From assembly GCA_020161775.1 (NCBI GenBank), contig JAIUOW010000007.1:1-64000 (forward strand): a DNA stretch of 64,000 nucleotides. Reading direction: 5' to 3'. Positions 14,931 through 42,047 of the stretch are shown one piece after another. Source of the stretch: Pseudomonadota bacterium (GTDB lineage Bacteria > Pseudomonadota > Gammaproteobacteria > Burkholderiales > Burkholderiaceae_C). The stretch's first letter is position 1. Each line of letters starts with the position of its first letter. The translations under genes and the position numbers were made by a program. The notes under the pieces are model-generated. The model saw only the letters and a list, made by a program, of their open reading frames with translations. It did not search any database and was not told the DNA's origin.

Positions 14931-14984
14931 GGGGTGATCTCACTTTCGGTGCAAAACACCCCGTTAGGAGTTGGGGGTAAACCC
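14931..14984 (+). repeat. Left terminal inverted repeat of the Tn3-type element
   Basis: Starts GGGGTGATCTCACTTTC and ends GGGTAAACCC. It is 45/54 identical, inverted, to 41994-42047. Confidence 0.82.
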
Positions 14985-15134
14985 TAAGATTTTGTCAGCT
15001 AAGCCAATGTCGTCTCCCCCTTCTCGCTGTATTTTCAAGGGAGGCCTTGAAGATGAACTACAAGTTGCGAACCGACAGCGTGCGCTAGCCCGGAGCGGCT
15101 ACCATTGGGCAGATCGCATCAAACGAGATCACCT

Positions 15135-15455
15135 ATGCAGATTTTTGCTTCCGGCGAAGGCCGTAAATTGAATGCTCCGGATGAGTTCTTGCCCCAGGGA
15201 TCTATCGGCAAGGTGGTGGGTCTCATTGATCTGGGGAAGAACAATGGATCCAATGATTTCGGTTGGTCTGGGGTCAAAACGGTCATTGACTTCGAGGGTG
15301 ACGCCTACGTTCTGGATTTCCCAGAGCACTCCCGCTTGGTAACCGACGATGGGCTCGAACTCACGCAGACAGAGGCAGGGGAAGTAGGAGGCTGGTGGCC
15401 CGATTCGCGCGACATTCAGCGCTATGGACTGCGCTGGATCAAGTTGTCGAATTAA
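15135..15455 (+). CDS. Hypothetical protein
   Basis: A 106-residue soluble, acidic protein with no family I recognise. Notable segments are GSIGKVVGLIDLGKNNGSNDFG, a central strand-rich part (KTVIDFEGDAYVLDFPEHS) and a tryptophan pair in GEVGGWWPDSRD. The pattern looks like a small beta-rich domain. It is the first gene inside the transposon, alone and in the plus direction, with HAD genes converging on it. The ATG at 15135 is chosen; the frame is open upstream only from a TTG. Confidence 0.5.
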   Translation: MQIFASGEGRKLNAPDEFLPQGSIGKVVGLIDLGKNNGSNDFGWSGVKTVIDFEGDAYVLDFPEHSRLVTDDGLELTQTEAGEVGGWWPDSRDIQRYGLRWIKLSN

Positions 15456-15548
15456 GACATCCGGAAACTTGCCCAGGCAGTGTCTGGAGAGACTAGCAAG
15501 AAGGGCTTAAAAAGGTTGGCTACGCATCAATCACGCAGCGGATGCCAC

Positions 15549-16139
15549 TCACACTGCCGTACTTCGCAACAGCTTTCGCCGAAGCTCACGCCGGACTTCA
15601 GAGCTGGAGAGGCCGGTGGTGCCCTCACAAGCGACCAAGTTGTCGAGGGCTTGAGAAGGCCAGTCCTCAACGTCATCGTCTATCGCGATCCAGTGGCGTG
15701 GCTTTCTTCTCCGCGCATCCGCCAGAATCTGCATGCCACGGGGCGTACTCTGGAACGATGCCAGAGTCCACGGATCGGTTCCATGCACGCGTTTGTGGTA
15801 AGTACCCCCGATGAATCGAGCTCGAAGCTGCGCCGGTAGGCGCTCAAGCGTTTTGGCATAGCCTGGCCTGACGCACCAGGAGCTACTCAGCACCAGTGCT
15901 GCTGAGGGATACGGCGCCAATTCCTCTTCCAAAAATGGAAGCCACTCAAACAGCGTATGGCCTACGGCTTCGTAGGGACTCATATAGATGCCACGGTTCG
16001 GATGCCAGAGGACGGCCTCATGGTGAAGCACGCCGTCGAGGTCGAGGTACAAGATCAAGTCAGCGCTGCGGGGAGTGGATGCTGGTATGTAGGGCTCCAA
16101 ATGGCCTAAGGTCATGCTCAATGGAAGAGAAACTCTCAT
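15549..16139 (-). CDS. HAD-superfamily small phosphatase-like protein
   Basis: A 196-residue protein with HAD motif I YLDLDGVLHHE (about residues 31-41), motif II SSSW (ALVLSSSWCVRPGYA) and acidic motif IV IAIDDDVEDW. The family covers small HAD proteins of unknown substrate, some fused to nucleic-acid repair domains. Alternative start MTLGHLEP at 16115. The gene begins only 24 bp from the end of an IS3-family insertion (16164), so its native promoter may be lost. A second, divergent HAD gene of the same type lies beyond the IS. Confidence 0.68.
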   Translation of the reverse strand: MRVSLPLSMTLGHLEPYIPASTPRSADLILYLDLDGVLHHEAVLWHPNRGIYMSPYEAVGHTLFEWLPFLEEELAPYPSAALVLSSSWCVRPGYAKTLERLPAQLRARFIGGTYHKRVHGTDPWTLASFQSTPRGMQILADARRRKPRHWIAIDDDVEDWPSQALDNLVACEGTTGLSSSEVRRELRRKLLRSTAV

Positions 16140-16202
16140 CTTTATGTAGTTGCGAAATCGGTGTGAATCGCCCCGGGTTTCGTGGAGGCCGGTTGGTTTA
16201 AG

Positions 16203-17054
16203 TCAGGCCGCCACCATGGAGGACTGACTGGCGAGTTGCCGGTAGTAGTTTGCCTCAGCCTCTGCAGGAGGGATGTATCCGATGGGTCCGAGCAGCCGGT
16301 GATGGTTGAACCAGGACACCCATTCCAGCGTTGCCAGCTCCACCGATTCACGGGTTGGCCATGACCGGCGATGAATCACCTCGGCCTTGTACAGACCGTT
16401 GATGGTCTCGGCTAAAGCGTTGTCGTAGCTGTCGCCCTTGCTGCCCACCGAGGGCTCGATGCCTGCCTCTGACAGCCGTTCGCTGTAGCGAATGCTGACG
16501 TATTGCGACCCCCTGTCGGAATGGTGAATCAATGCGCCATCACGCTCGGGCTGCCGGGCATACAGCGCCTGCTCCAGGGCATCCAGAACGAAGTCCGTGT
16601 GCATGGAGGTACTGACCCGCCAGCCCACGATGCGCCGGGCATACACATCGATCACGAAGGCCACGTACAGCCAGCCTTGCCAGGTTGAAACGTAGGTGAA
16701 GTCCGAGACCCACAGCTGGTTCGGCCGCTCGGCCTTGAACTGCCGATTGACCCGATCCAGCGGGCAAGGGGCCTTCATGTCGCTGAGGGTGGTGCGCACC
16801 ACCTTGCCCCGGCGCACGCCCTGCAAGCCCAGTCGCTTCATCAACCGCTCAACCGTGCAGCGGGCAATGACAACTCCCTCCCGGTTCATCTGTTTCCAGA
16901 CCTTGTCGGCGCCGTAGACCCGCATGTTGGCTTGCCAGACGCGCTCAACGTGCGGCACCAGGGTGTCGTCACGCTGGGCGCGCGGGCAGCGCAGCTGGGG
17001 ATTTCGCTGATGAGCAGCATGGCGCCAATAGCCTGACGGGGCGATCTGCAGCAC
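16203..17054 (-). CDS. IS3-family OrfB, DDE transposase
   Basis: The rve/DDE integrase part with motifs WVSDFTYVSTWQGWLYVAFV (first D), a second D in IHHSDRGSQYVS and an E in NALAETINGLYK followed by WFNHHRLLGPIGYIPPAEAE. The coding frame continues upstream of the listed GTG to about 17160, reading [17 protein letters not shown], and overlaps the end of OrfA. The working transposase is therefore probably an OrfAB fusion made by a -1 ribosomal frameshift, as in other IS3 elements. Confidence 0.9.
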   Translation of the reverse strand: MLQIAPSGYWRHAAHQRNPQLRCPRAQRDDTLVPHVERVWQANMRVYGADKVWKQMNREGVVIARCTVERLMKRLGLQGVRRGKVVRTTLSDMKAPCPLDRVNRQFKAERPNQLWVSDFTYVSTWQGWLYVAFVIDVYARRIVGWRVSTSMHTDFVLDALEQALYARQPERDGALIHHSDRGSQYVSIRYSERLSEAGIEPSVGSKGDSYDNALAETINGLYKAEVIHRRSWPTRESVELATLEWVSWFNHHRLLGPIGYIPPAEAEANYYRQLASQSSMVAA

Positions 17055-17107
17055 TTTGCAGATCGACTCGACCCCGTAGGCCTGTCGATGCTGATCGACG
17101 AAGTTGT

Positions 17108-17434
17108 TCAGGACTTCAGACGGCGGTCGAGCTCCGCCTGGGCGAAAAACGCGCTGGCCAGCTTCAGGATCTCGTTGGCTTTGCGCAGCTCTTTGACCTC
17201 GCGCTCCAGCGCCTTCATCTGTTCACGTTCGGATGTCGTGATGCCGTCGCGCACGCCGGAATCGATCTGGTCTCGCTTGACCCATTCGTTGAGGGTCTGG
17301 GGCACGCAGCCGATCTTGGGGGCGATGGACTCGATGGTGGCCCACAGCGAGGGGTACTCGCCTCTGTGCTCACGCACCATGCGAACAGCACGCTCGCGGA
17401 CCTCAGGTGAAAACTGGTTCGACTTCTTGCTCAT
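17108..17434 (-). CDS. IS3-family OrfA, HTH protein
   Basis: A 108-residue protein with an HTH_Tnp_1 domain ([19 protein letters not shown], then [15 protein letters not shown]) and a C-terminal leucine-zipper helix ([20 protein letters not shown]). It binds the element ends and supplies the N-terminus of the OrfAB fusion. Confidence 0.9.
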
Positions 17435-17559
17435 GGCTCAATCCTCTCAGAGAAAAGAGCCTCCTCAAAACCCGGGGCGATTCAGTGCCAGTCATCCCTT
17501 CGAGGGGAGCTGGTTGCCCTAACCTCGTGTCGGAAGTGTGACCAACCCCTCGCTTTCCT

Positions 17560-18012
17560 TCATAAAAGGCCGTGAAGACGCGTTACCAGCTGGCATGTGT
17601 TGGCTTCGGTGAGCCCATCGCGACCATCAACCAACAACAACGACTTGCAAAACGGTCTGTATAGCCAAGATCGGTCATCTACAGCAAGCCAACTGCAATG
17701 GGGCGCGTTGTTGGACCAAAGCCAGGCGTGGCACTCTGCGTCCCGCTGATAGCTGACCAACGTGTTCGGAACGTTCTGCAGATCGCAGTACCTAGGGGTG
17801 ACACCTTGGATCATGCTGGCGATGTCCGGCGAGAACCTTTGCCGCAAGTCCGCCAAAGTCAGCTCCAGCCGCCATGTGCTCGTGATCACTACTTTGGTTT
17901 CGGGCACCTGCCGTAGCGCATCCTCCAGAATCGGCAGGCGGCAGAAGTGTTTCGATTCATGGCAATGCTCTGGGTGCAGGACCCCATCAAAATCCAGAAA
18001 CAGTATGGGCAT
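17560..18012 (-). CDS. HAD-superfamily small phosphatase-like protein
   Basis: A 150-residue single-domain protein that begins with the HAD motif I FLDFDGVLHPE, followed by TSTW (motif II) and LAVDDRSW (acidic motif IV). It is related in pattern to the gene at 15549-16139, but shorter and lacking its N-terminal extension. Its substrate is unknown. It lies on the other side of the IS3-family insertion in the same direction, so the two HAD genes may have been neighbours before the IS arrived. Its start is next to the XRE regulator promoter region. Confidence 0.68.
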   Translation of the reverse strand: MPILFLDFDGVLHPEHCHESKHFCRLPILEDALRQVPETKVVITSTWRLELTLADLRQRFSPDIASMIQGVTPRYCDLQNVPNTLVSYQRDAECHAWLWSNNAPHCSWLAVDDRSWLYRPFCKSLLLVDGRDGLTEANTCQLVTRLHGLL

Positions 18013-18070: not shown

Positions 18071-18109
18071 CAATGAGACTAGTTGGTCGTGGTCTTTTTG
18101 GTCTCATTG
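18071..18109. promoter_or_regulatory. Operator-like repeats upstream of the XRE gene
   Basis: TGAGACTAGTTGGTC (18074-18088) and a reversed half-site TTGGTCTCA (18098-18106) share the unit TGAGACYAR-TTGGTC with a site at 18886-18900. CAATGAGAC (18071-18079) and GTCTCATTG (18101-18109) also form a 9-bp dyad. The site lies 16-54 bp before the XRE start, so it is a plausible autoregulatory operator. Confidence 0.55.
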
Positions 18110-18124
18110 GGCGGAAATCGGGGG

Positions 18125-18427
18125 ATGTCTTCCCGAAAGCGTGTTGCACCCCAAGCCGACTTTGGTCGAGCGCTGCGCCAATTGCGCGCAGCACGCGGCC
18201 TCGTGCAGGAAGACATGCTGCTGGCCACCAGCCGCCGCCACATCAGCCGCATCGAGCAGGGTCACCAAGTTCCCAGCGTCCGCACCATAGAGGTCTTGGC
18301 TGAGCAGATGCAGATCCATCCTTTGACGCTGGTTGCCGTAGCCTACTGCCCGGAGTTGGATGCGGCCTCGGTCAGTGAACTGCTCAAGACCCTTAAAAGT
18401 GACTTCAAAGGCCTCGTTGCCGATTAG
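18125..18427 (+). CDS. XRE-family helix-turn-helix regulator
   Basis: A 100-residue protein with a Cro/CI-type HTH (residues about 12-70: FGRALRQLRAARGLVQEDM, then SRRHISRIEQGHQVPSVRT). A short C-terminal tail follows. It probably represses itself and the converging gene downstream, because matching operator-like sequences lie upstream of both. The start MSSRKR is preferred over an open-frame start 14 codons upstream because that one would lie in the operator. Its stop overlaps the stop of the converging gene by four bases. Confidence 0.8.
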   Translation: MSSRKRVAPQADFGRALRQLRAARGLVQEDMLLATSRRHISRIEQGHQVPSVRTIEVLAEQMQIHPLTLVAVAYCPELDAASVSELLKTLKSDFKGLVAD

Positions 18428-18864
18428 GCGTGGCAATCTGATTCTGCTTCCTCTTTGGCATGCTGAACCAGCATTTGAAGTCCCTGTATCAGACCTGTGC
18501 CAATCGGAGTGGCATCTTGGCGCTGCAGCATGCGGTTGACGATCTCGCGGTCAACGGCGGTGTTGAGCAAACAAAGTGCCTCCTGCAGAGTTTCTAGACC
18601 GACTTCAAAGCTATCTCCCGATGGATTGGCACCGGCTTTGGTGAGCAGCAACAAGGTCAGCGGCAGTGCTGCGCTTGCAGGTTCGTGTTCACCATCTTTC
18701 CAGCCAGCGCCGGAAAGAAGGTCTCTGATTTGGTCTGACATGAGCAACAGGTGGTTGTCCTGGAGTGCATCGGGCAAGATGGCTTCCCAGCCCTGTGACG
18801 TGATCAGGCCCATCATGTCCTGTGGTCCAAATTTGCCCAGAGTGGCTTTTTCCAAACGTAGCAT
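18424..18864 (-). CDS. Hypothetical protein convergent with XRE regulator
   Basis: A 146-residue, mostly helical, acidic protein with no recognised family. Visible features are GPQDMMGLITSQGWEAILPDA near the start, a leucine-rich middle (ALPLTLLLLTKAGANP) that may be a buried helix, and a C-terminal His/Cys end. Its 3' end overlaps the XRE gene by 4 bp tail to tail, and both promoters carry the same TGAGACYAR-TTGGTC operator. The pair may be a regulatory or toxin-antitoxin-like module, but nothing here identifies an activity. Confidence 0.5.
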   Translation of the reverse strand: MLRLEKATLGKFGPQDMMGLITSQGWEAILPDALQDNHLLLMSDQIRDLLSGAGWKDGEHEPASAALPLTLLLLTKAGANPSGDSFEVGLETLQEALCLLNTAVDREIVNRMLQRQDATPIGTGLIQGLQMLVQHAKEEAESDCHA

Positions 18865-19044: not shown

Positions 19045-19482
19045 TTGAAAAGCCGCTTGGATCTCACCCGCTTGGCCGAACTTGACAGGCAGTTTTGCGA
19101 TTTCGCGAAGCTGCAGCGCAATGCCACGCCCAGGTGCGGCTGGACAAAGACGGTTCGACTGGCACTGGGCATGAGTTCGAAAGCGCTGGGAGAGCGTTTA
19201 GGCATGACAGCCCAGGGCGTTCGTAAACTGGAGCAAGCTGAGGCGAGCGGGACGATTACGCTGAATACTCTTGCACGGCTGGCCCATGGCCTGGATTGCG
19301 AAGTGCACTACATGTTTGTTCCACGAACCAGCTTGATGGAACAGGTGCTCAGGCGCACCCATGAAGTCGCAGGAATTCCGATGCCACCAACACTCAAGGT
19401 CACGGAGGTTTTGACGGAGACGCAAACGCTGGCCGCCATATCCACCGTGCTCGCCCAAGTGAACAAACGGGGACTCTGGTGA
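19045..19482 (+). CDS. Mobile mystery protein A-like HTH protein, TTG start
   Basis: A 145-residue protein matching the mobile mystery protein A family. It has an N-terminal conserved segment (LAELDRQFCDF...RCGWTKTVRLALGMSS), an HTH (LGERLGMTAQGVRKLEQAE), the EASGTITLNTLARLAHGLDC motif and FVPRTSLMEQVLRR. The TTG start is used because the conserved N-terminal part lies before the first ATG. Family members usually pair with a Fic-domain mobile mystery protein B directly downstream, and none is seen here, so this copy is an orphan or the partner was lost. Confidence 0.7.
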   Translation: MKSRLDLTRLAELDRQFCDFAKLQRNATPRCGWTKTVRLALGMSSKALGERLGMTAQGVRKLEQAEASGTITLNTLARLAHGLDCEVHYMFVPRTSLMEQVLRRTHEVAGIPMPPTLKVTEVLTETQTLAAISTVLAQVNKRGLW

Positions 19483-19888: not shown

Positions 19889-19918
19889 CAAACCGTGAAT
19901 CAACCGAAGGAGGCTCAC

Positions 19919-20242
19919 ATGGTTCATTTCAATGTTCCTGATATGACGTGCGGCGGTTGTGCTCAGCGCATTCGTCGAGCAATAGCTCAGACCCAACTGC
20001 CAGCAGGCGTCGAAGTAGAAATCGATGTGGCCGCGCGGCAGGTCCGCGTTCCTGGGCAAGCCGAAGACGACACTGTGGAGCTTGTCCGCTCTGCAATTGG
20101 GCGTGCCGGATACAAAGCAGACGCCGTGGTGGCGACTCCATCGCGCCGAACAACCGGTGGCTGCTGCTGTTCGTCTCGGTCCGCAACCTCTGTTGATGTG
20201 AATCAAGGTGCTGCGAACCGTACGTCGTCATGCTCCAGTTGA
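19919..20242 (+). CDS. CopZ-like HMA-domain metal chaperone with Cys-rich tail
   Basis: A 107-residue protein with an HMA fold and metal site MTCGGCAQRIRRA (CxxC: GMTCxxC-type). After about residue 70 there is a Cys/Ser-rich tail ending GGCCCSSRS...SSCSS not found in standard CopZ. HMA chaperones hand Cu(I) to P-type ATPases. The start ATG follows AGGAGG at 6 bp spacing; an upstream in-frame ATG is less likely. It lies 30 bp after a CueR-type promoter and before a Met-rich lipoprotein. Confidence 0.78.
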   Translation: MVHFNVPDMTCGGCAQRIRRAIAQTQLPAGVEVEIDVAARQVRVPGQAEDDTVELVRSAIGRAGYKADAVVATPSRRTTGGCCCSSRSATSVDVNQGAANRTSSCSS

Positions 20243-20260: not shown

Positions 20261-20764
20261 ATGCGTCTGAATATCGTCGCTGGGCTGTTGACAACCCTTT
20301 TCGTGGCGGGCTGTGCCATCGCGCAATCTCCAAAACCTGCGGACGAACACGCAGGCCACCACCCCGGTGATGCGCAGAGTGGTGGCGTAGTGACCCAGTC
20401 TGCCCCGGCAGCTACTACCCCGCCAGCACCGGACGCCTTTGATCGTCAGATGAAGGCCATGCAGGAAATGCACAAAAAAATGCAGGCGGCCAAGACTCCC
20501 GCCGAACGTTCTTCCCTGATGGATGAGCACATGAAGCTCATGCAGTCCGGCATGGCCATGATGGGTGCTGGAAATTCTGGTGGCATGGGTATGGGGATGA
20601 TGCAGCAAGGGGCGCAGGCCAAACCCGCCATGCCGGCACCCTCCGGAAACTCGGGCATGGGAGGCATGATGGGCATGCACGCTCAAATGGAGCGCCGCAT
20701 GGTCATGATGGAACAGATGATGCAGATGATGGTGGACCGCCAAGCGGCCATGCCATCCAAGTAA
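20261..20764 (+). CDS. Met/His-rich lipoprotein, probable copper binder
   Basis: A 167-residue protein with a lipoprotein signal (lipobox VAGC, cysteine at residue 18). A His-containing segment (DEHAGHHPGD) is followed by a methionine-dense C-terminal half (GGMGMGMMQQG, MGGMMGMHAQM, MEQMMQMMV). Such Met clusters bind Cu(I). It follows the copZ-like gene by 18 bp, under the same CueR-type promoter. It probably buffers copper in the periplasm. No specific family is named. Confidence 0.7.
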   Translation: MRLNIVAGLLTTLFVAGCAIAQSPKPADEHAGHHPGDAQSGGVVTQSAPAATTPPAPDAFDRQMKAMQEMHKKMQAAKTPAERSSLMDEHMKLMQSGMAMMGAGNSGGMGMGMMQQGAQAKPAMPAPSGNSGMGGMMGMHAQMERRMVMMEQMMQMMVDRQAAMPSK

Positions 20765-21185: not shown

Positions 21186-24100
21186 TCACGAGGCCTCAGT
21201 GTCCAGCCGATCGCGTTTTCTCGGCCTTCGCATCAGCACATAGGCCGCAGGAATCACGAACAAGGACAGCAGCGGCGCTGTCACCATGCCGCCCAGCATA
21301 GGTGCCGCAATGCGGCTCATGACCTCCGAGCCGGTCCCGCTGCTCCACACGATGGGCACCAGGCCCGCCAGGATGACAGCCACGGTCATGGCCTTGGGGC
21401 GCACGCGCAGCACGGCGCCTTCCCGGATCGCATCCAGCAGTTCTTCCAGCGTGGGCGGCCTGCCGTCTGGACATCTCTCTGCAAGTGCCTGCTTGAGGTA
21501 GATGAGCATGACCACACCAAACTCTGCCGCGACCCCCGCCAGAGCGATGAAGCCGACGCCGGTGGCGATGGACAGGTTGTAGTTCATCAGGTACAGGAAC
21601 CAGATCCCCCCCGTGAGCGCAAATGGCAGCGTCGCCATGATGAGGCCGGCCTCACCCATGCGCGAGAAGGTCAAGTACAACAGCACGAAGATGATCAGCA
21701 ACGTGGCTGGCACCACCACCTTGAGGCGGGCATTGGCTCGCTCTAGGTACTCGAACTGGCCTGAGTACGTGATGCTGACCCCGGGCTCCAGCTTGATCTG
21801 GCGGCTCACCGCATCGCGCAGGTCATTGGCCACGGATGCCAGATCACGTCCCCGCACATCGACATACACCCAACCCGATGGGCGGGCGTTCTCGGTCTTG
21901 AGCATGGGAGGGCCATCGGTGATGGAGACGCTGGCCACCGTGCCCAGCGTGATCTGCTGCCCCATGGGGGTGGAGATGGGCAACTGGGCCAAGCGTTCTG
22001 GCGAGTCTCTCCACTCACGCGGATAGCGCAGGTTGATCGGGAAGCGGGCCAGGCCCTCGATCGTTTCCGAGACGTTTTCACCACCGATGGCCCCGGAGAC
22101 CACGGCCTGGATTTCGCTCACATTCAGCCCGTAGCGCCCTGCGGCCGTGCGATCGATGCGGACATCGACATAGCGCCCCCCCGTCAAGCGCTCTGCCAAA
22201 GACGAAGTCACTCCCGGAATGCCCTTGGCGACCTGCTCAACCTCGGCAGCGATCCCATCGATCACCTTCAGGTCGTTGCCGGTCACCTTGACCCCGATAG
22301 GACTCTTGATGCCCGTCGCGAGCATGTCGATCCGGTTGCGAATGGGCGGAATCCAGATGTTGGACAGGCCGGGGATCTTGACGGCCTTGTCCAACTCTTC
22401 GATCAGGCCCTCGGGGGTCATACCTGGACGCCATTGGTCTCTGGGTTTGAGCTTCACCGTGGTCTCGAACATTTCCAGCGGTGCCGGATCCGTGGCGGTC
22501 TCCGCGCGGCCAGCCTTGCCGAACACGCGCTCGACCTCGGGCACCGTCTTGATCATCCGGTTGCTCAGTTGCAGCAGTTCGGTGGCCCGCTGCGCCGACA
22601 GGCCCGGGAGCGCCGACGGCATGTACAGCAGATCACCTTCATCCAGCCTGGGCAGGAACTCGCCCCCCAACCGCGACAGAGGCCAGATCGTGGTGGTCAG
22701 CGCCAGCACGGCGATGGCCAGGGTGGATTTTGGGCGGTGCAGAACCCACTCCAGGCAAGGCCGGTACACGGCGATCAGCGCGCGCGTGATCGGGTTCTTC
22801 TGCTCATCGGGGATACGGCCCCGGATCCAGTAGCCCATCAGGACCGGGATCAGCGTGACCGAGAGACCCGCAGCTGCGGCCATCGCGTAGGTCTTGGTGA
22901 ACGCCAGCGGTCCGAACAGGCGGCCTTCCTGCGCTTCCAGCGTGAAGACGGGAACGAAGGACAAGGTGATGATGAGCAGCGAGAAAAACAGCGCGGGGCC
23001 TACCTCCTCGGCGGCTTCGGTGATCACCTTCCAACGTTCTTCTCCGACCAACGGGCGGTCGGGATGCTTGTGCTGCCAGGCTTCCAGCTTCTTGTGGGCG
23101 TTCTCGATCATCACCACGGCCGCATCGACCATGGCGCCCACAGCAATGGCAATCCCGCCCAAGGACATGATGTTGGCATTGATGCCCTGGTAGCGCATCA
23201 CCAGAAACGCCGCCATGATCCCCAGAGGCAGAGAAATGATCGCGACCAGCGCAGAACGCAGGTGCCACAAGAACAAGACACAGACCACAGCCACCACGAT
23301 GAACTCTTCCACGAGTTTGGTGGTGAGGTTGTGGATCGCCCGCTCGATGAGTGCGCTGCGGTCGTAGGTGGTGACGATCTCCACACCCTGGGGCAGGCTG
23401 CTTTGCAGCTCGCCGAGCTTGGCCTTGACGGCCTGGATGGTTTCCTGGGCATTCTTGCCGGAGCGCAGGACCACGACGCCACCAGCCACTTCTCCCTCAC
23501 CGTCGAGTTCAGCAATGCCGCGCCGCATCTCCGGCCCGATCTGGAGCGTTGCGACATCGCCCAGGCGCACGGGAATCCCGGCGCGCGACACCAGCGGGAT
23601 GGCCCGGAAGTCATCCAGCGTCTTGAGGTAGCCGCTGGCGCGCACCATGTACTCGGCCCCGGACAACTCCAGCACCGACCCGCCGGTTTCCTGGTTGGCG
23701 CCCAGGATGGCCTCGCGGACCTGCGCCTGGGTCAGCCCTTGGGCTGCGAGCTTGATGGGGTCGAGCACCACCTGGTACTGCTTGACCATGCCGCCCACCG
23801 ACGCCACTTCTGCCACATTGGGCAAGCTCTTGAGTTCGAATTTCAGGAACCAGTCCTGCAGGGCGCGCAGCTGGGCCAAGTCGTTCTTGCCGGTGCGGTC
23901 CACCAGTGCGTATTGGTAGATCCAGCCGACCCCGGTGGCGTCGGGGCCAAGCGACGACTTGGCCGTGGCGGGCAGTCGCCCCTGCACCTGGTTCATGTAC
24001 TCCAGCACGCGGGAGCGCGCCCAGTACAGGTCCGTGCCGTCCTCGAACAGGATGTAGACAAAAGAGTCGCCAAAGAACGAGAAGCCGCGCACCGTCTTGG

Positions 24101-33346: not shown

Positions 33347-34609
33347 TCACAGCCGCTGCGAAATCTCCAGCAACGGCTTGATGCTGGACCCAAAGCGGCT
33401 CATGGAGGCATGGTTCTGCTCCAGTTGGCTGTAGGGCAAGTACCGGATTCCTAGCTCTGACACCCTGGAGAAGGCGGGCCTTTGAAGTTGCTCAGCGACC
33501 TTGTCTCTGCGATTGTCTGGAGCCACCAGAAACAGGGCGCAGTTGCCTGCAACCGGCGTGCCCAGGGCCAAATCGAGCATGCGTACGATGCCCGAATAGA
33601 TGGACGTGGTGTGTTCGACTTCGAATGCGGCGGCGAATTGCGAGGTCTGGGGATCAACCCATACGACATCGATCAGTCGCACGGACTCCAGTCCTCGGTC
33701 CAGGCTGGCGGGCAACTGCGCCATGCATCCATCTCCCAGCAGCCCCCCGCCATAGGCGCGGCCCCGGTCGTTGGACGCGATCCAGACCTCAAAGCCGAGG
33801 GCCTTGCCCAGGTCGCGCAGCGAGGCCTGGACACCCGTGTGGGTCGCATCGCTCTCGGTCGCCTGGGACAGTTCCCGTTGCAATGCGGTGGATTCCTGCC
33901 GCACCCGTTCGAGATCTTCTTGCCATAGAGCCGCAGCCGCCGCATCCATGGCTTGTGGCGGTGCGGCATATCGGCCGCTGCCGATGTCAAACATCAGACC
34001 TGCGATCGCGCCGAGATCGTTCGATAGTTTCAGCCGGTACTGCGCGTTCAAGCGCAGCAAGCCCTCCCGCATGGAGAGATAGTGGTCCCAGCGTCCGAGC
34101 TTCACGCGCCCCCCGGTCACCGCGTTGAACCCATTGACGATGGCCGTGTTGAAGGGAGAGACCAGCGTTGGGTGGATGAAATACAGCAAGTTAGCAACTG
34201 CTGGACCCAAGCCTTTGATGCCAATCGCATCAATGCGCTGTATGGCGGCCACTACGTCTTCTGCGCAGTTGCAGTGATCGCAAGTGTGAAGAAGATCTGC
34301 GAAGGCGAGCTGGTTGCTCGTGCTCTCGTAGATGTCCGGAATCCGCAGCTTGGGTTTCCAGAGGAACGCGTGGTCCGCTCCCTTGAAAATCTGGCGCTGC
34401 TCTGCCACGGAGCCCACAATCGTCTCCAGCGAGGAGCCTCGGTAGGCATTGCCAAACGTGCCACCCCGGATGTCCTCCACCACCTGCGCAATGCCTCGGC
34501 GAATGGAGCGGAAGTTCTTGACCCTCTGGTCCCACAGGAACCAGGTGTTGTAGGTGCTGCTCGGATCTGCCTTCCAGCAGTCTATGAGGGTTGCCAGAGG
34601 GTCATGCAT
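33347..34609 (-). CDS. Unknown protein with PD-(D/E)XK-like C-terminal motif, coupled to cusS
   Basis: A 420-residue protein. The N-terminal half (about 1-190) is helical with CDHCNCAEDVV (Cys pair region) and GIKGLGPAVANLLYFIHPTLVSPFN, which resembles a helix-hairpin-helix DNA-binding element. The C-terminal half has RLIDVVWVD followed by AAFEVEHTTSIYSGIVRMLDL, a D...ExE pattern as in PD-(D/E)XK nucleases, then FLVAPDNRRDKV. A restriction or repair nuclease is suggested, but this is inference. Its ATG overlaps the cusS stop in ATGCATGA (34609-34602), so the two genes may be translationally coupled. Confidence 0.55.
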   Translation of the reverse strand: MHDPLATLIDCWKADPSSTYNTWFLWDQRVKNFRSIRRGIAQVVEDIRGGTFGNAYRGSSLETIVGSVAEQRQIFKGADHAFLWKPKLRIPDIYESTSNQLAFADLLHTCDHCNCAEDVVAAIQRIDAIGIKGLGPAVANLLYFIHPTLVSPFNTAIVNGFNAVTGGRVKLGRWDHYLSMREGLLRLNAQYRLKLSNDLGAIAGLMFDIGSGRYAAPPQAMDAAAAALWQEDLERVRQESTALQRELSQATESDATHTGVQASLRDLGKALGFEVWIASNDRGRAYGGGLLGDGCMAQLPASLDRGLESVRLIDVVWVDPQTSQFAAAFEVEHTTSIYSGIVRMLDLALGTPVAGNCALFLVAPDNRRDKVAEQLQRPAFSRVSELGIRYLPYSQLEQNHASMSRFGSSIKPLLEISQRL

Positions 34610-36008
34610 CTGTCGTGAGGTGCTTGCCAATGCTTTGTGCACTGGGGAAATACATCGAAAAACAAGTCCTGCCACCGGCCGAACTCACGGAAATCCGCCC
34701 CCGGTGCGCATGAACAATCGCCTGGGTGATGGACAAGCCCAAGCCCGCGCCATCGGAGTCCAGATGCTTGCGCGACTTGTCTGCCCGAAAGAAGCGGTCG
34801 AACAGGCGGGGGATCATCTGCGCATCGATAGAAGGTCCAGCGTTGACGACATCCACGGCGGTTCCGTGCAGGTCCCCTTGGATGTCCACGACCACCTGCT
34901 CGCCGGGCGGGGTGTAGCGAATGGCGTTGGACAGGAGATTGCTCAGCGCCCGGCGCAGCATCAACCGGTCGCCAGTGATCTCCGCCGTCCCGATCAATTG
35001 CAGTCGGACCAGCTTTTCTTCGGCAAGGGCCTCGTAGAAGTCAAACAAAGCCTGTGTTTCATCATGGACCGCGATTCTCTCCGTGCTGGGAAGGATGAGA
35101 CCGTGATCAGCCTTGGCCAGGAACAACATGTCAGCCACCATGCGGGCCAAGCGCTGGTACTCCTCGGCGTTGGAGGCCAGTATGTCCTGGTACTCCTCAG
35201 AGGAGCGCGCCTGGCTGAGCGTGACCTGCGTCTGTGTCATCAGATTGTTGATGGGCGTGCGCAGCTCGTGAGCCAGGTCCGAAGAAAACTCGGACAGGCG
35301 GTCAAACTCATCCTTCAGACGCCGGAGCATCTCGTTGAGGGTGGTCGCCAGGTCGGCCATTTCCACCGGAAACTCCTGGGTTGGCATCCGCTCGTCCAGT
35401 CGCTGTGCCGTGATGGCCATGGCGCGGGACCGCATCGCCCGAAGGGGGGCCAAGCCATTCTTTGCGGCCCACCAACCGAGGATCCCGGCAACCAGCGTTG
35501 CCAATGCCACGTAGCCCACAAGCACCCAAATCAATTCGTACATGAAGTGCTTGTGGTGGGCAATGTCCACGGCCACCCAGACCTGCAGAGGCGGCTCGGC
35601 GGAACCCGGCAACGTCACGGACGCAGACATCCCTCTGTACTCTCGCTCCTTGGTTTTCCAAGATGCAACGCCCAGGCGGGCCTTCTGGGTCAGGGCGACG
35701 AGGTCCTCTGGAAACTGAAAATCCGTAGTCGCATAGAGCGGATCCCTGCCACGGAAAACGCTCACAAAAAGGCCCTCATGGCTGTGTAAAACGTCGTCCA
35801 ATCGCAATTTGAGGTCCTGCGGCGACGTGGATTTTCCTATCACCTCACGCGTCAGGTGGATCTTGTCGCGCAGGGCATCGCGGTCGAGTTCCACAAAGTG
35901 CCGGTCGATGGAAATGGCAACGAGCGTCCCCAGGCCAACGAGCACAAGTCCGGAAGCCAAAGTAAAAAAGGCCGTCAGCCGTGTCGTGAGCGAGTACCGG
36001 GCTTTCAC
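34602..36008 (-). CDS. cusS: Heavy-metal sensor histidine kinase (CusS/CopS)
   Basis: A 468-residue two-helix sensor with membrane segments near residues 14-32 and 160-185. A periplasmic sensor loop lies between them ([17 protein letters not shown]). HAMP, HisKA with [19 protein letters not shown] and HATPase with [12 protein letters not shown] and GAGLGLSIT follow. It senses periplasmic Cu/Ag and phosphorylates CusR. The start overlaps the cusR stop by 4 bp (36005-36008). The 3' end overlaps an unrelated PD-(D/E)XK-like gene. Confidence 0.9.
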
Positions 36009-36691
36009 GCACGCTCCTGCGGAGCCTCAAGCACATACCCCATACCTCGCACCGTCTGGATCAACTTGGCGTCAAAGGCATCGTCAATCTTGGCCCGAAG
36101 CCTGCGCATAGCCACCTCGATCACGTTGGAGTCGCTGTCGAAATTCATATCCCATACCTGCGACGCAATCAGAGAGCGCGGCAGAACTTCCCCTTGACGG
36201 CGCATCAGCAGCTCCAGGAGTCCGAATTCCTTGGCAGTGAGGTCTATGCGTTTGCCCGATCTGCTGACTCGCCGCCGCAAGAGGTCCAGTTCTAGATCGG
36301 CCACCTGGAGGATCGTCACCTCGGTGCCGTTGCGACCGCGCCTGAGGATGGTGCGCGCTCGCGCCAGCAACTCGGCGAAGGAAAACGGTTTGACCAAGTA
36401 GTCGTCCGCCCCGAGTTCCAAACCTTTGATCCGGTCTTGCACCTGGTCCTTGGCGGTGAGAAACAACACGGGCATCTCCAGCCCACGGCGGCGCAGATGG
36501 GTGAGCACCTGCCAGCCATCCATCCCGGGAAGCATCACATCCAGGATCACCAGATCGTAGTCACCTTCCTGCGCCAGATGCAGGCCATCGACTCCGTTGT
36601 GGACCAGATCGGCGTTGAAACCCGCTTCACGCAACCCTTGGCGCAGGTATTCGCCGGTTTTGATTTCATCTTCGACGATCAATATCTTCAC
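36005..36691 (-). CDS. cusR: OmpR-family copper response regulator (CusR/CopR)
   Basis: A 228-residue regulator with a receiver domain ([10 protein letters not shown], phospho-acceptor D51 in [13 protein letters not shown]) and a winged-helix DNA-binding domain ([22 protein letters not shown] ... [14 protein letters not shown]). It activates copper genes with CusS. It is divergent from the operon at 36848, with a cop-box-like dyad in between (36765-36780). Confidence 0.92.
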
Positions 36692-36847: not shown

Positions 36848-37165
36848 ATGAGAAATTCCTGGCTTTCACGACCTACCTCAACCCTCTGGCTGGCCGCCGC
36901 GCTCATAGCGCCGTCCCTGGCCCTCGCGCAGGTACCCGAGGGCGAACTGACGAAGGTGGACTACCAGCTTTCGTACCGATCCGCCCTCTCGGGCTACGAC
37001 GCCTACAAAGAGCAATCCGTCCAGCCGTGGAAAGCGGCCAATGACAAGGTGGGCGAGATCGGGGGATGGCGTGCTTATGCCAAGGAGATGCGCCAGACGG
37101 CGCCCACAACCGGCCAGGAACAACCCGCCCCAGGCCATGACGCACACCATGGGGGCAAACAATGA
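36848..37165 (+). CDS. Hypothetical secreted protein heading the copper operon
   Basis: A 105-residue precursor with a signal peptide (to about residue 26, SLALA) and a mature part with tyrosine-rich text (LTKVDYQLSYRSALSGYDAYK) and a His-containing tail (GHDAHHGGK). No family is assigned. It overlaps the next gene by ATGA (37162-37165), so it is translated with the TolC-like partner. It is the first gene downstream of the cop box. Confidence 0.65.
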   Translation: MRNSWLSRPTSTLWLAAALIAPSLALAQVPEGELTKVDYQLSYRSALSGYDAYKEQSVQPWKAANDKVGEIGGWRAYAKEMRQTAPTTGQEQPAPGHDAHHGGKQ

Positions 37166-38595
37166 ACCGCCCCTTGCGCATGCCCCGCACCAAACTCGTG
37201 ATCGCCGTGGCCGCAGTTGCGGTCTTGTCTGGCTGCGCCAGCGTGAATCTGGAGCAAAACCTCGCCAGCGCCAACGCAGCCGCAAGCGGCTTCACGGACG
37301 GCCAGCTTACCTTGGCCCGGGACCAGAGCGAGCGTGACGCCTTGCGCCAACGCGCTTTGGATCTGCTGGCCAAGCCGCTCAGCCAGAAGGACGCCGTGCA
37401 GCTCGCGCTGATCAATAGCCCATCCCTGCAGGCCATCGTGGCCCAAAACTGGGCGGACGCGTCCACGGCAGCCCAGTCCGGCCGCATTGCCAACCCCATC
37501 CTGAGCCTGGAGCGTGTGCGTCTGGGCAGCGAGACGGAGATTGGACGCCTCCTGTCCTTCGGACTGCTGGACCTGCTGACCTTGCCCACTCGCAAGGGCA
37601 TCGCCGAGCAGCGCATCAAGCAGGCCCAGCTGCGCCTGAGCAGCGACGTGGTGGACCAGGTCACGCAGGTACGTCAGTCCTGGGTCCGCGCTGTCGCCGC
37701 GCAACAGACGCTGACTTACACCCAACAGGTTGTCGCAAGTGCTCAGGCCAGCGCAGAGTTGGCCAAGCGCATGCAGGCGGTGGGTAATTTCAACAAGCTC
37801 GATCGCGTGCGCCAGCAAGCGTTTTATGCCGACACGGCGACCCAGCTGGCCAGTTCCCAGCACCAGGTCACGGCAGCCCGTGAGGAGTTGGTGCGGCTGC
37901 TGGGTCTGGACGAAGCCCAAGCCCAGCAGCTCAAGTTGCCTGAGCGCCTGCCTACCCTGCCCAAGGAGCCGCTGTCCCCATCGGACGCTGGCCGTCAGGC
38001 GTCCAAGGGGCGGCTGGATCTGCAGATTGCGAAGGCCGACTACGACGCCGCCGCACGCGCGCAGGGCTGGAACACGATCACGACCTTCACGGACATCGAG
38101 CTGGGGGTACGGCGCGACTCGGTGTTTGATGCCGCCGAAAACACCCATTCCACGCGGCGCGGCTTCGAGATCAGCCTGCAGCTGCCCATCTTCGACTGGG
38201 GGGGCATGCGGCGCGACGCCATGAACGCGCAGACGCTGGCTGCTGCCAGCCGTCTGGAAGCAACCGCACGCGCGGCTGGCTCAAACCTTCGGGAGAGCTA
38301 CTCCGCGTACCGCACGGCGTATGACATCGCGCGGCACCACCGCGACGAGGTGATCCCCCTGCGGAAAACCATTTCTGAAGAAAACCAGCTGCGCTACAAC
38401 GGAATGCTGATCAGCGTCTTTGAGCTGCTGGCCGATTCGCGCGACCAGGTCAATTCGGTGATGGCCGCCCTGAATGCCGAGCAGCAGTTCTGGCTGGCGG
38501 ATGCGGCACTTCAAGCCTCTCTCATTGGCAAGCCCACCAGCGCTGGCATCTCGGGCGGCGGTGCAGCCGCCGCCGAAGCTGGTGCAGGCCACTGA
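37162..38595 (+). CDS. TolC-family outer-membrane lipoprotein
   Basis: A 477-residue protein with lipobox LSGC (cysteine near residue 25) and helical outer-membrane efflux repeats (LALINSPSLQAIVAQNWADA, ANPILSLERVRLG, RDSVFDAAENTHSTRRGFEIS). It has no RND pump of its own in this operon and may act with other pumps, or by itself next to the multicopper oxidase. It ends with an Ala/Gly-rich tail. Confidence 0.82.
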   Translation: MNRPLRMPRTKLVIAVAAVAVLSGCASVNLEQNLASANAAASGFTDGQLTLARDQSERDALRQRALDLLAKPLSQKDAVQLALINSPSLQAIVAQNWADASTAAQSGRIANPILSLERVRLGSETEIGRLLSFGLLDLLTLPTRKGIAEQRIKQAQLRLSSDVVDQVTQVRQSWVRAVAAQQTLTYTQQVVASAQASAELAKRMQAVGNFNKLDRVRQQAFYADTATQLASSQHQVTAAREELVRLLGLDEAQAQQLKLPERLPTLPKEPLSPSDAGRQASKGRLDLQIAKADYDAAARAQGWNTITTFTDIELGVRRDSVFDAAENTHSTRRGFEISLQLPIFDWGGMRRDAMNAQTLAAASRLEATARAAGSNLRESYSAYRTAYDIARHHRDEVIPLRKTISEENQLRYNGMLISVFELLADSRDQVNSVMAALNAEQQFWLADAALQASLIGKPTSAGISGGGAAAAEAGAGH

Positions 38596-38613: not shown

Positions 38614-40026
38614 ATGAATTCAAGAAGAGATTTTTTCCGGTTTGCCGGCATCGCCGGAGGGGCCGTGGCCGCAGCGAGCGTGAGCCGGGTGGCGATGGCC
38701 GCATTGCCCGAGCCCGTGTTTCAGTCCAGTGCCGACACGATGGCGCCGCTGGTGCCCAGTTCCGGGCGCCCCTACAACCCTGTGGTTACGCTCAACGGCT
38801 GGACGCTGCCCTGGCGCATGAACCAAGGCGTCAAAGAGTTTCATCTGGTGGCCGAACCCGTGGTGCGCGAAATGGCGCCCGGTTTCAAAGCACACCTGTG
38901 GGGATACAACGGCCAGAGCCCAGGCCCCACGATCGAGGTGGTGGAAGGCGATCGCGTTCGCATTTTTGTGACCAACAAACTGCCCGAACACACCAGCATC
39001 CACTGGCACGGGCAGCGTTTGCCCAGCGGTATGGATGGCGTGGCGGGCTTGAACCAGCCAGCGATCCAGCCTGGCAAGACCTTCGTCTATGAGTTCGTGG
39101 CCCGCCGTCCTGGCACCTTCATGTACCACCCACACGCCGATGAAATGACCCAGATGGCCATGGGCATGATGGGCTTCTGGATCACGCACCCCAAGACCAA
39201 GCATCCACTGATCGATGAAGTGCAACGGGATTTCTGCTTCCTGTTGAGCTCTTACGACATCGAGCCAGGCGCAGCCACGCCGAAGGTCGCAGAAATGACG
39301 AACTTCAACCTGTGGGCATGGAACAGCCGGGTTTTCCCAGGCATCGACTCGCTGAACGTGCGGCTCAACGACAAGGTTCGCATCCGGATCGGCAACCTCA
39401 CCATGACCAATCACCCCATGCACTTGCATGGTCACGAGTTCCTGGTGACGGGCACTGATGGCGGCCCCACCCCCAAGAGCACACGGCTCTATGAAGTGAC
39501 CACCGACGTGGCCGTGGGCCAGATGCGCCAGATCGAATTCCTGGCAGACGAAGAAGGCGACTGGGCATTCCACTGCCACAAGAGCCACCACACCATGAAT
39601 GCCATGGGGCACGACGTTCCCACCATGATCGGCGTGGACCACCGGGGCATTGCCAAGAAGATCAACAACCTGATCCCTGACTACATGGTCATGGGCGAGC
39701 GCGGCATGGCCGACATGACCGAGATGGAGATGCCCATTCCCGACAACACCCTTCCGATGATGACCGGGGAAGGCCCGTTCGGTTCGGTCGAGATGGGCGG
39801 CATGTTCAGTGTCCTGAAGGTGCGCCGCGACCAGAAGCCGGGCGACTACAAGAACCCGGGTTGGTACAAGAACCCGCCAGGCACTGTGGCCTACGAGTAC
39901 ACCGGCCCCATGGCAGAACCTGCCCGCTTCAAAGCCGAGGGAGGCCAGTCCATGCCCCGCAAAGAGAAGTCCACATCGGACACCGTCGTCAAGGTCAAAA
40001 AACCGTCTTCGCACAGCGGCCACTGA
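38614..40026 (+). CDS. Multicopper oxidase (copper tolerance), Tat-exported
   Basis: A 470-residue precursor with a twin-arginine signal (NSRRDFFRFAG). Multicopper oxidase copper motifs are complete: HWHG, HPHADEM, NHPMHLHGHEF and HCHKSHHTMNAMGH. A Met-rich region (MADMTEMEMP, MEMGGMF-type) lies near residues 365-395. It oxidises Cu(I) to less toxic Cu(II) in the periplasm. It is 18 bp after the TolC-like gene and precedes a cupredoxin gene. Confidence 0.88.
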   Translation: MNSRRDFFRFAGIAGGAVAAASVSRVAMAALPEPVFQSSADTMAPLVPSSGRPYNPVVTLNGWTLPWRMNQGVKEFHLVAEPVVREMAPGFKAHLWGYNGQSPGPTIEVVEGDRVRIFVTNKLPEHTSIHWHGQRLPSGMDGVAGLNQPAIQPGKTFVYEFVARRPGTFMYHPHADEMTQMAMGMMGFWITHPKTKHPLIDEVQRDFCFLLSSYDIEPGAATPKVAEMTNFNLWAWNSRVFPGIDSLNVRLNDKVRIRIGNLTMTNHPMHLHGHEFLVTGTDGGPTPKSTRLYEVTTDVAVGQMRQIEFLADEEGDWAFHCHKSHHTMNAMGHDVPTMIGVDHRGIAKKINNLIPDYMVMGERGMADMTEMEMPIPDNTLPMMTGEGPFGSVEMGGMFSVLKVRRDQKPGDYKNPGWYKNPPGTVAYEYTGPMAEPARFKAEGGQSMPRKEKSTSDTVVKVKKPSSHSGH

Positions 40027-40061
40027 TCGGATCCTTTCCTCATTCACAACCCAAGGTAACT

Positions 40062-40565
40062 ATGAAACGCACTCTTTCCCTGATCGCAGCCTCCGCCCTG
40101 GTGGCCCTTTCCTTCAACAGCTTCGCCGGAGGCAACCACGGTGGTGGCCATGACGGCGGCGGCGCCAAAGGCCACGGCAGTGCTGAATCCGCCATTGGTC
40201 AGCCAGGCCAGGCCAGCAAGGTGACTCGCACTATCAATGTGGACATGGCCGACACCATGCGCTTCACGCCCGCCGCGATTTCCGTCAAGCAGGGTGAAAC
40301 CGTCAAGTTCGTGATCAAGAACAGTGGCCAGGTCAAACACGAGTTCAGCATGGGCACCGATGCCGAACTCAAGGAGCATTACGAGACGATGAAGAAATTC
40401 CCGGACATGGAGCATGACGAACCCAGCAAGGTGTCACTGGCCCCCGGAAAGCAAGGCGAGATCATCTGGCAGTTCACCAAGGCTGGCGAAGTGAAGTTCG
40501 CCTGCCTGTACCCAGGCCACTACGACGCCGGCATGAAGGGCCAGGTCACGGTGGTCAAGAAGTAA
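40062..40565 (+). CDS. Periplasmic cupredoxin-like copper protein
   Basis: A 167-residue precursor with a signal peptide (to about residue 22) and a His/Gly-rich N-terminus (GGNHGGGHDGGGAKGHG). The cupredoxin domain has HEFSMGTDAELKEHYE and C-terminal FACLYPGHYDAGM, which supply type 1-like ligands His/Cys/His/Met. It may accept electrons or copper from the multicopper oxidase. It starts 36 bp after that gene. Confidence 0.82.
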   Translation: MKRTLSLIAASALVALSFNSFAGGNHGGGHDGGGAKGHGSAESAIGQPGQASKVTRTINVDMADTMRFTPAAISVKQGETVKFVIKNSGQVKHEFSMGTDAELKEHYETMKKFPDMEHDEPSKVSLAPGKQGEIIWQFTKAGEVKFACLYPGHYDAGMKGQVTVVKK

Positions 40566-40603
40566 CGGCACGAGCGCTGCCTCTATTCGAAAAAGGAGTT
40601 CCT

Positions 40604-40945
40604 ATGCAAACCGCAACCAAATTGTTGATGGGCGCAACGCTGTCGCTGGCGGCGCTCCTGCCGCTGTCGGCCTCGGCCCAGGCCGGCACGGACGCAGGCA
40701 AATCCGCCTCCGCGCCTGCAGCCTCCATGACGGAGGGGGAAGTACGCAAGATCGACAAGGACGCCGGCAAGATCACCATCAAGCACGGTGACATCAAGCA
40801 CCTGGAGATGCCGGGAATGACCATGGTGTTCACTGCCAAGGACAAGGCCCTGCTCGACAAGCCACAGGTCGGCGACAAGATCCGCTTCATGGTGATCAAC
40901 GAGGGCGGAAAGATGGTCGTCACTGCCATCGAGCCTGCCAAGTAA
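40604..40945 (+). CDS. cusF: CusF-like copper metallochaperone with Met in place of Trp
   Basis: A 113-residue precursor with a signal peptide (to about residue 26) and a CusF beta-barrel whose metal site reads KHLEMPGMTMVF. The usual CusF site has W before MTM; here a Met takes that place while the CusF domain fused to CusB keeps Trp. CusF hands Cu(I) to the CusB adaptor. It is the last gene of the operon. Confidence 0.84.
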   Translation: MQTATKLLMGATLSLAALLPLSASAQAGTDAGKSASAPAASMTEGEVRKIDKDAGKITIKHGDIKHLEMPGMTMVFTAKDKALLDKPQVGDKIRFMVINEGGKMVVTAIEPAK

Positions 40946-40990
40946 GCGCAAAAAGTGTCTCGCTACGCCCTCAAGAAAAGGGGGCGTTCT

Positions 40991-41067
40991 GGGCTGCTGC
41001 CGGTTTCAAAGACACCTTGTTAAGGTGGAAAAGCTTAGGTCGGTGTCCACTGAACCGGCAGCAGCCC
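40991..41067. repeat. Large inverted repeat at the break in the Tn3 transposase
   Basis: Arms GGGCTGCTGCCGGTT (40991-41005) and AACCGGCAGCAGCCC (41053-41067) are perfect, with similarity continuing to about 26 bp. An inner dyad CACCTT/AAGGTG (41013-41027) lies inside. The outer right end is exactly where the Tn3 transposase reading frame stops matching its family. It looks like the two joined ends of an IS, or a MITE-like remnant. Confidence 0.7.
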
Positions 41068-41908
41068 ATAGATCGCGCTGATCCTCAGAGAGAAATTTCG
41101 TAGCGGATGGCGGACGATTGATCACCTCCTGGCTGTACGCCCTGAGACGATTCAATGGAATCGCCGACAGCTTCCACTTGTGAACATACAGTGACTTGAG
41201 GCACTCGATCTTCTTGGTGACCTCGCTCAGCGTGAGCTGTCCATGCTTTCCCGGGGGCGTGCGCAGCCACTCCAGCACGGTGTGACCGCCAGGCCCTGAT
41301 CGCTTGGAGAACGCGTGCGAGAGCGCCGCCTGAATCTGCTTGCGTGGCGCACAGGCGCGGATCGCTGCGATTGCAGCGCTCTCCTGGTCAGCAAAGGCTG
41401 TGCGCGCCATGTCACGCAGCGTCCGATCACCAGGCAGAACGAGCCGACGATCAAAAAGCCAGAGCTCCGACTGTTGGACTAGGTCATCGACTGATACCGC
41501 TGAGGCGGAAAGCTCGCCCAGTGCATCTGCCAGGAGCAGTTTTGTGGTGTCGTCTAGTACCGCGAAGCCAACACGTTCCCGAGCCCAGAGCTGGTGCTCG
41601 TACCGCGTGTCCTTGTCCTTGTACAGCGAGGTCACCGATGCGATGTCCGTCGCGTTCATGCCAAGCGCTGAGGTCAGGTGCCGCAGCAAAACGGAGGGGA
41701 GCCCTGAAAAGGCATCCGGATGCCGGCCCGTAGCGCGCAGCATCACCAGTTGAACTGCAGCGCCAAGGCGTGCAGACCCTCTGAACCGGGGCGGGCGCAG
41801 CTCCTGGATGTCTTCAATGCTCAGCCCAAAGCACTCTTCGACTTCCCGCTTGGATAGCGATTTGGGCAAAGTATCGGCGCCAACGAAACGTAGGTAGTAG
41901 CTAGACAA
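41006..41908 (-). pseudogene. tnpA: Tn3-family transposase (DUF4158 type), C-terminal part lost
   Basis: The first 280 residues match the DUF4158 N-terminal region of large Tn3 transposases (LSKREVEECFGLSIEDIQEL, RFRGSARLGAAVQLVMLRATG, INRPPSATKFLSEDQRDL). Full-length relatives are about 1000 residues with a C-terminal DDE domain, which is missing. The match ends at 41068, where an inverted repeat begins; the last residues come from that repeat. It lies just inside the right terminal repeat and fits the 27-kb element. It can not move the element by itself. Confidence 0.85.
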
Positions 41909-41993
41909 GCTGGTCCTCCCGTGGCTGGCGCGGTCGCGAGCCTGCTGCAGTCTACGTATTCGCTACTGATAATTCCAGACAATAAAATAGCAC

Positions 41994-42047
41994 GGGTTAA
42001 CCCGTAGTTCCTAACCGGGTTTTCTGCACGGAAAGTGAGATCACCCC
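41994..42047 (-). repeat. Right terminal inverted repeat of the Tn3-type element
   Basis: On the minus strand it starts GGGGTGATCTCACTTTC and is 45/54 identical to 14931-14984. The AAA-ATPase fragment runs into it from the right. Confidence 0.82.

Follow-up and report, generated by a model that had tools for sequence, protein, structure and literature searches.

We analysed a 64-kb window (positions 1 to 64,000 of contig JAIUOW010000007.1, Burkholderiaceae_C), in which the segment 14931–42047 is very probably what deletions have left of a large Tn3-family unit transposon of Comamonadaceae, a non-autonomous derivative carrying a copper-efflux and copper-oxidation block; the deletion steps set out below form part of this reading. 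The 27 kb of copper genes lie between two inverted 54-bp ends (14931–14984 and 41994–42047) that start with GGGG and are identical at 45/54 nt, including all of the outer 17, as an earlier reading from the letters alone (the sequence-only reading) had claimed and the inverted-repeat listing of the window bore out. Tn3-family terminal inverted repeats are about 38 bp or more in length and start with GGGG, a pattern to which the window ends conform. The pair is the longest inverted one listed for the window, with shorter 26-nt pairs showing higher identity, and the 64 kb contain six exact inverted 17-mer pairs, of which its outer 17 nt form one. No 5-bp target duplication was found at the element, the outer 5 bp being GCTTC on the left and AATGG on the right, and it is therefore filed as a derivative of a Tn3-family transposon. 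The stretch 14931–20000 gave no match in the phage collection. The ends, the cut transposase gene and the target gene are located as follows.

14931..14984, plus strand: left terminal inverted repeat (IRL), 54 bp (inverted-repeat listing of the window; IRL of the GW101-3H11 71.7-kb element for comparison)
41994..42047, minus strand: right terminal inverted repeat (IRR), 54 bp, adjoining tnpA (inverted-repeat listing of the window)
41006..41908, minus strand: Tn3-family transposase gene, truncated to roughly residues 1–305 of 984 (DUF4158; DNA homology end at 41070)
40990..41068, no strand: 79-bp palindrome where the cargo adjoins the cut tnpA, read as IS3-like ends with almost nothing between
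42048..42245, minus strand: start part of the target gene, residues 1–66 of a GajA/OLD-type nuclease (alignment to relatives, PADLOC)
14757..14930, minus strand: later part of the target gene, about residues 374–431 of the same GajA/OLD-type gene (alignment to relatives)
14067..14757, minus strand: 3' part of an MBL/beta-CASP gene, lying beyond the element and fused in frame with the GajA piece

A search for the 54-bp ends in other genomes, as suggested by the sequence-only reading, found that they recur. In the named-genome collection, the 23-base pattern GGGGTGATCTCACTTTCSGTGCA matched 17 stretches of 10 named genomes, all of them Acidovorax, Hydrogenophaga or Giesbergeria. With up to 2 mismatches it occurred in 9/299 family genomes including the own one, and a reversed control pattern gave 0 throughout; a chance inverted repeat is ruled out by these results. 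The start of tnpA lies directly inside the end in nine of the 17 named stretches (L027, L031, L034, L036, L037, L038, L041, L042 and L043, with just 44 residues present in L037), and likewise in the family-genome matches G285 and G068, while no tnpA match was found in the 1.5 kb beside the end in G318, G310, G129 and G277. Genes of the window's left end lie inside the end in five stretches, as a 2-kb HAD/XRE module in L029, L032, L035 and L040 and as HAD genes alone in L030. The remaining three comprise L028, where the contig stops about 33 bases in, L033 with 68 bp of a right end only, and L039, the left end of a Hydrogenophaga element with its tnpA at the opposite end. An 84-bp palindrome in G138 (L018 1440–1523 and 1501) consists of two family ends back to back and resembles a Tn3-derived miniature element, its flanking 5-mers being unmatched. 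The sequence-only reading had held that ends standing without a transposase would speak against it; this was seen once, in the G138 palindrome, which has no room for a transposase, against the nine named stretches with a tnpA start and the five with left-end genes counted above.

Six end pairs of full-size elements, the window counted, were readable for duplications. Matching 5-bp duplications were present in four of them, the window being one of the two without. Both ends are on one contig for the Acidovorax 210-6 element (19,946 bp, duplication TCGGG) and for the C2 element of Acidovorax sp. GW101-3H11 (71,694 bp, TGCTG), and on different contigs for D2M1 (CATGA) and NB1 (AGATG, using one of two candidate right ends). 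When the 210-6 flanks were rejoined around a single duplication copy, a 373-codon open frame resulted, read as biotin synthase, with a longer 428-codon frame on the other strand. For the joined flanks of GW101-3H11 C2, no nameable gene was found at the joint.

Between the ends, the window element carries the following genes and insertion.

15549..16139, minus strand: HAD_SAK_2-domain protein (Pfam 1.1e-30), further in and in opposite orientation in several sisters
16164..17484, minus strand: IS3-family insertion within the element, 26-bp ends, 3-bp duplication GTG (end pair, transposase domains, flanks)
17560..18012, minus strand: HAD_SAK_2-domain protein (Pfam 7.3e-27), the first gene inside IRL in five sisters
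18083..18427, plus strand: XRE/HTH regulator of the left-end module (HTH_31 1e-9)
18424..18864, minus strand: unassigned 146-aa protein of the left-end module (56–86% in relatives)
19045..19482, plus strand: XRE/HTH regulator of the left-end module (HTH_3 5.3e-7)
19895..20242, plus strand: HMA copper-chaperone-like protein (Pfam HMA 6.6e-12)
20261..20764, plus strand: possible heavy-metal-resistance protein (Metal_resist 0.0024, weak, under the Pfam cut-off)
21186..24473, minus strand: CusA/CzcA-type RND pump (TIGR00914, 1403 bits)
24332..25861, minus strand: CusB adaptor with C-terminal CusF domain
25874..27199, minus strand: CusC-type outer-membrane efflux protein (OEP 4e-26)
27800..30298, minus strand: copper P1B-type ATPase with HMBD and YHS domains
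30970..31380, plus strand: DUF4148 protein
31476..32000, plus strand: DUF4148 protein
32080..32700, minus strand: methyltransferase-like protein
32797..33210, minus strand: FliE-domain protein within the copper block (FliE 4.7e-21)
33347..34675, minus strand: unassigned 442-aa open reading frame (ORF), matched in both GW101-3H11 copies
34602..36008, minus strand: CusS-type sensor kinase
36005..36691, minus strand: CusR-type response regulator
37162..38595, plus strand: TolC/OEP-family outer-membrane protein
38614..40026, plus strand: multicopper oxidase
39861..40565, plus strand: CopI-like cupredoxin
40604..40945, plus strand: CusF-like periplasmic copper protein (CusF_Ec 3.1e-27)

Going by family names alone, this cargo should give its host copper protection by Cus-type RND efflux, a P1B ATPase, a multicopper oxidase, CopI and CusF under CusRS control. 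Of the 17 window genes that run from HMA through CusF, the GW101-3H11 C2 element holds 16, collinear and with 82–98% protein identity in the best piece, which for the ATPase covers 62%; the methyltransferase is the sole cargo gene missing. Read from its IRL inwards, the HAD/XRE/146-aa/XRE module comes first and the copper genes follow. The C1 copy of the same genome has the methyltransferase, no CusC match, and a best piece covering only 38% of the ATPase, and the FliE-domain protein is matched in both copies at 78–85%. Because the sisters share the ends and the copper genes in their order, four of them with 5-bp duplications, the claim of the sequence-only reading that the cargo moved as one Tn3-family unit holds. 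The element is shared with soil- and water-dwelling relatives of Acidovorax.

The left-end arrangement XRE, 146-aa protein, XRE was present in seven of the nine fetched left ends (window, GW101-3H11 C1 and C2, NB1, D2M1, MAG C18 and 210-6), inverted as a block in one element, and absent from those of G331 and MR-S7. For NB1 and D2M1, the left part of the element is present up to the ends of their contigs. The cargo itself varies: the copper genes in the Hydrogenophaga element of G331 (~38 kb) are more distantly related (CusA 70%, multicopper oxidase 75%), and the RND pump of 210-6 is just 37% identical to the window CusA. DNA past the copper block is common to GW101-3H11 C1 and C2, with part of that block lying near the right end of G285 and a related block (~69–77%) occurring in 210-6. 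In the plasmid collection, no record covered 80% of either cargo query, the best covering 18% at ~75% and 28% at 77% identity, and the tnpA/IRR stretch gave no DNA match.

Further observations concern the genes of these elements. The 146-aa protein (18424..18864) belongs to no family in Pfam, PADLOC or PHROGs, and its predicted structure was uninformative, with a mean predicted local distance difference test (pLDDT) score of 42.6. On a plasmid of Comamonas sp. C11 (L100 4843–9678), the HAD/XRE/146-aa/XRE module stands beside SulP and universal stress protein genes, with a recombinase/KfrA-type pair further along; family ends were looked for there without success. Copies related to the IS3-family element at 16164–17484 interrupt tnpA in 210-6 and GW101-3H11 C29, and another adjoins a HAD_SAK gene in GW101-3H11 C1. 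Inside the 71.7-kb transposon of GW101-3H11 (L065 6897–10284), an IetA/IetS defence pair adjoins a tyrosine recombinase.

We compared both flanks of the window element with OLD/GajA-type relatives (L014, L076–L079). The right flank corresponds to residues 1–66 and the left flank begins at residue 374 (L014 numbering), with identities of ~56–73% where the alignment ends at the joint and lower identity for L080. Since both flanks are pieces of one OLD/GajA-type gene, the element sits in a single gene, of which ~307 codons are missing exactly between its two ends. The label GajA was assigned by PADLOC at 6.9e-27 for the start piece of the window and at 1103 bits over 634 aa for the intact relative L014, and the target gene agrees with the GajA profile of an OLD-type ATPase with a TOPRIM nuclease. 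The missing middle was not found elsewhere in the own genome, where a query with a whole relative returned only the two flank pieces and one weak match to another ATPase (8e-4).

The sequence-only reading had proposed that two host genes, MBL/beta-CASP on the left and OLD-like on the right, were cut at the ends. This was rejected by the flank alignments and by the position of the beta-CASP gene, which takes the place of gajA beyond about residue 431. Beta-CASP homology sets in at residue ~55–69 of the left frame in nine of ten relatives and at 38 in one, mostly at ~57–59, corresponding to about base 14757. Because this onset lies ~170 bp outside the left end, the break in the MBL/beta-CASP gene is a second joint, separate from the element end. 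The resulting frame (14067–14930, minus strand), which stays open for 287 codons starting at the element edge, is an in-frame chimera: a GajA piece with the TOPRIM start is joined to the beta-CASP/RMMBL portion of an MBL nuclease. The contig is 212 kb long, and the window flanks carry its genes for nitric-oxide and nitrate reductases. An AbiEi/DUF6088-like protein (43526–44146, minus strand) is encoded close to the broken gajA, which suggests that remnants of a defence region lie between nor and nar.

At the right end, the 300-aa ORF at 41006–41908 (minus strand) matches DUF4158 (2.9e-20) and the beginning of NF033527, the Tn3 transposase model of NCBIfam (2.3e-39, under its cut-off). It corresponds to residues 1–305 of the intact 984-aa sister TnpA with an 88% match, confirming the broken DUF4158 tnpA previously noted there. 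Only this N-terminal part is kept in the window, whereas the D2M1, G331 and G068 elements with the same ends have full TnpA frames with PF01526. At the DNA level, homology to the sister tnpA extends to 41070 and homology to the GW101-3H11 cargo to 40977–40990, the 79-bp palindrome lying at this joint. Its halves match separate places in other plasmids, one of these matches beginning ~100 bp before an IS3-family transposase, and we tentatively take the palindrome for an IS3-like element of which only the ends are left.

The own genome encodes one full Tn3 TnpA, on contig C5, which is ~21% identical to the sister TnpA, and no third end of the family was found in it with the pattern at up to 2 mismatches, just the two of the window. 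A broken Tn3 transposase lies on contig C26. Because tnpA is cut, no third end was found and the sole full Tn3 TnpA is this distant, we judge the window element to be non-autonomous and able to move only if a matching transposase is supplied.

Comparison places the ends, the left-end module and the copper block together elsewhere and in the same order, with duplications in the sisters, and we infer the steps of the event. An ancestor with a TnpA acting on the 54-bp ends would have transposed replicatively into gajA (Gabija/OLD-type). A further intramolecular transposition into the same gene may have deleted ~0.92 kb abutting one end together with one copy of the duplication, a course that would result in exact ends without a duplication. 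Separately, an IS3-like insertion and a deletion at 40990–41068 would have cost the element two thirds of its tnpA and, probably, another block of cargo. The excerpted text of PMC5142620 describes a Tn3-family element whose duplications were lost via end-abutting deletions, read as intramolecular transposition. The sequence-only reading had attributed the lost duplication to a deletion or recombination, and the ~307 target codons missing between the ends support deletion as the likeliest cause.

Several points weigh against this reconstruction. The window itself has no duplication, and the C1/C29 end pair of GW101-3H11 also lacks a matching one; perhaps duplication loss is not unique to the window, or these two ends derive from different copies. 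An empty gajA site from a close relative was not found, the host genus being represented by one genome in the set, and the gap of ~307 codons is approximate, as the GajA residue numbers are taken from relatives 52–73% identical. Two other matches to the 79-bp palindrome have no annotated transposase within 2.5 kb, the region in a third other record being unannotated. The additional cargo may have been lost from the window, or the other elements may have gained it. The GC content offers no help, at 0.56–0.60 for 15–20 kb of the window and also 0.59–0.60 just beyond the right end, and was set aside as evidence because its values in the right flank match the low ones of the element.

Recombination between two direct-orientation transposon copies in the same gajA, deleting the DNA between them and leaving one copy with mismatched flanks, would likewise account for ends that are exact, for the absent duplication and for the loss of the middle of a single gene; several genomes do hold more than one end of this family. 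This course, however, requires two insertions within ~0.9 kb of one gene, only the two window ends are present in the own genome, and target immunity, its basis not understood, is reported for Tn3 elements in the excerpted text of PMC5142620; we consider it unlikely. The G138 palindrome, being two such ends, recalls the published TIME-COMPs (excerpts of PMC4133298 and PMC13367494), in which case two miniature inverted-repeat elements (TIMEs) would by chance surround a chromosomal copper island. A TIME-COMP has two separate miniature elements and no interior of a parent transposon, whereas both window ends run into DNA like that inside full elements (tnpA on the right, HAD/XRE genes on the left), and in GW101-3H11 this cargo is enclosed by ends of the same kind that have a duplication. 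This interior homology and the collinearity with GW101-3H11 largely refute the arrangement, which we rejected as highly improbable. That the copper block had long resided in the nar/nor region, as its reductase-gene flanks might suggest, and that the ends came later by chance is scarcely credible, the block being collinear elsewhere in elements with these ends and the target gene continuing on both sides.

Among known transposons, full-length TnpA alignment identified IS882 (Cupriavidus necator H16 pHG1; Comamonadaceae OS-4) as the nearest named transposase. Its ends likewise begin with GGGG, the inverted pair around the H16 gene being GGGGTAATCGTCCTTTT..GCAGATTGATACGGT, but they share only the outer pattern with the window-type ends. 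The sister TnpAs compared (D2M1, G331 and part of 210-6) are 81–86% alike and 37–51% identical to IS882-labelled proteins, with 44–51% for the two full ones; the TnpA of H16 is only 44% (over 973 residues) and that of OS-4 51% identical to those of the window-type sisters, which in contrast to IS882 span ~20 to 72 kb with metal cargo. On pHG1 (L091 11847, 15209, 16014, 16186, 19711–22837), inverted ends enclose the IS882 transposase and two more GGGG ends lie 1 kb on, with an ATP-binding protein and a UvrD-helicase gene a few kb away. In the plasmid search, IS1071, also of the Tn3 family, followed as the second-nearest group of named TnpAs, at ~34% identity and with different ends. Among solved structures, the Tn4430 transposase was the only type found.

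A likeness to Tn4651/TnXax1-type elements, which use tnpS/tnpT for resolution, is given by the divergent pair of a KfrA_N protein and a tyrosine recombinase in GW101-3H11 C2 and D2M1, the proteins of the two elements being 86–87% alike. The TnpT/TnpS partners presumably resemble such KfrA_N proteins. TnXax1 has a divergent tnpT/tnpS pair, according to the excerpted text of PMC7157771. The nearest named TnpAs here, however, are IS882 and IS1071, and neither gene of the pair has a match in the window element. With no resolvase domain among the ORFs scanned either, the cointegrate resolution system of the Tn3 family is lacking in the window element, though present in GW101-3H11 C2 and D2M1. The tyrosine recombinase of the G331 element is unrelated to those of GW101-3H11 C2 and D2M1 by BLAST, and the interior of the 210-6 element gave no PF00589 or PF00239 match.

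A Tn1331 derivative in KPC plasmids is likewise a Tn3-family element with duplications removed by abutting deletions, read as intramolecular transposition; it differs as a clinical plasmid element with other cargo, and its order of events was traced via related plasmids, whereas that of the window element is deduced (excerpted text of PMC5142620). No description of the lineage of these ends was found in the open-access literature among the matches listed, nor in the excerpts of PMC7157771, PMC5142620, PMC2864759 and PMC4447125, and no paper in the open-access library searched paired 'IS882' with 'transposon'. We file the window-type element as an addition to the Tn3 family.

We see about an even chance that the ends mark an undescribed lineage of giant Comamonadaceae Tn3-family transposons (~20–72 kb), with a TnpA clade of their own, exchangeable metal cargo and phage-defence genes (IetA/IetS in GW101-3H11), and the left-end HAD/XRE/146-aa/XRE module as backbone; if so, this module may govern transposition, immunity or maintenance. 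The window copy is probably no longer able to move by itself, and offers an example, legible from its scars, of an element becoming fixed, with an antiviral defence gene broken, the duplication lost and most of the transposase lost. The case shows how ~20 kb of copper-resistance genes can pass as a single Tn3-family unit from one environmental bacterium to another; the lineage, including a 71.7-kb element with metal and defence genes, provides material for asking how large transposing Tn3-family elements grow.

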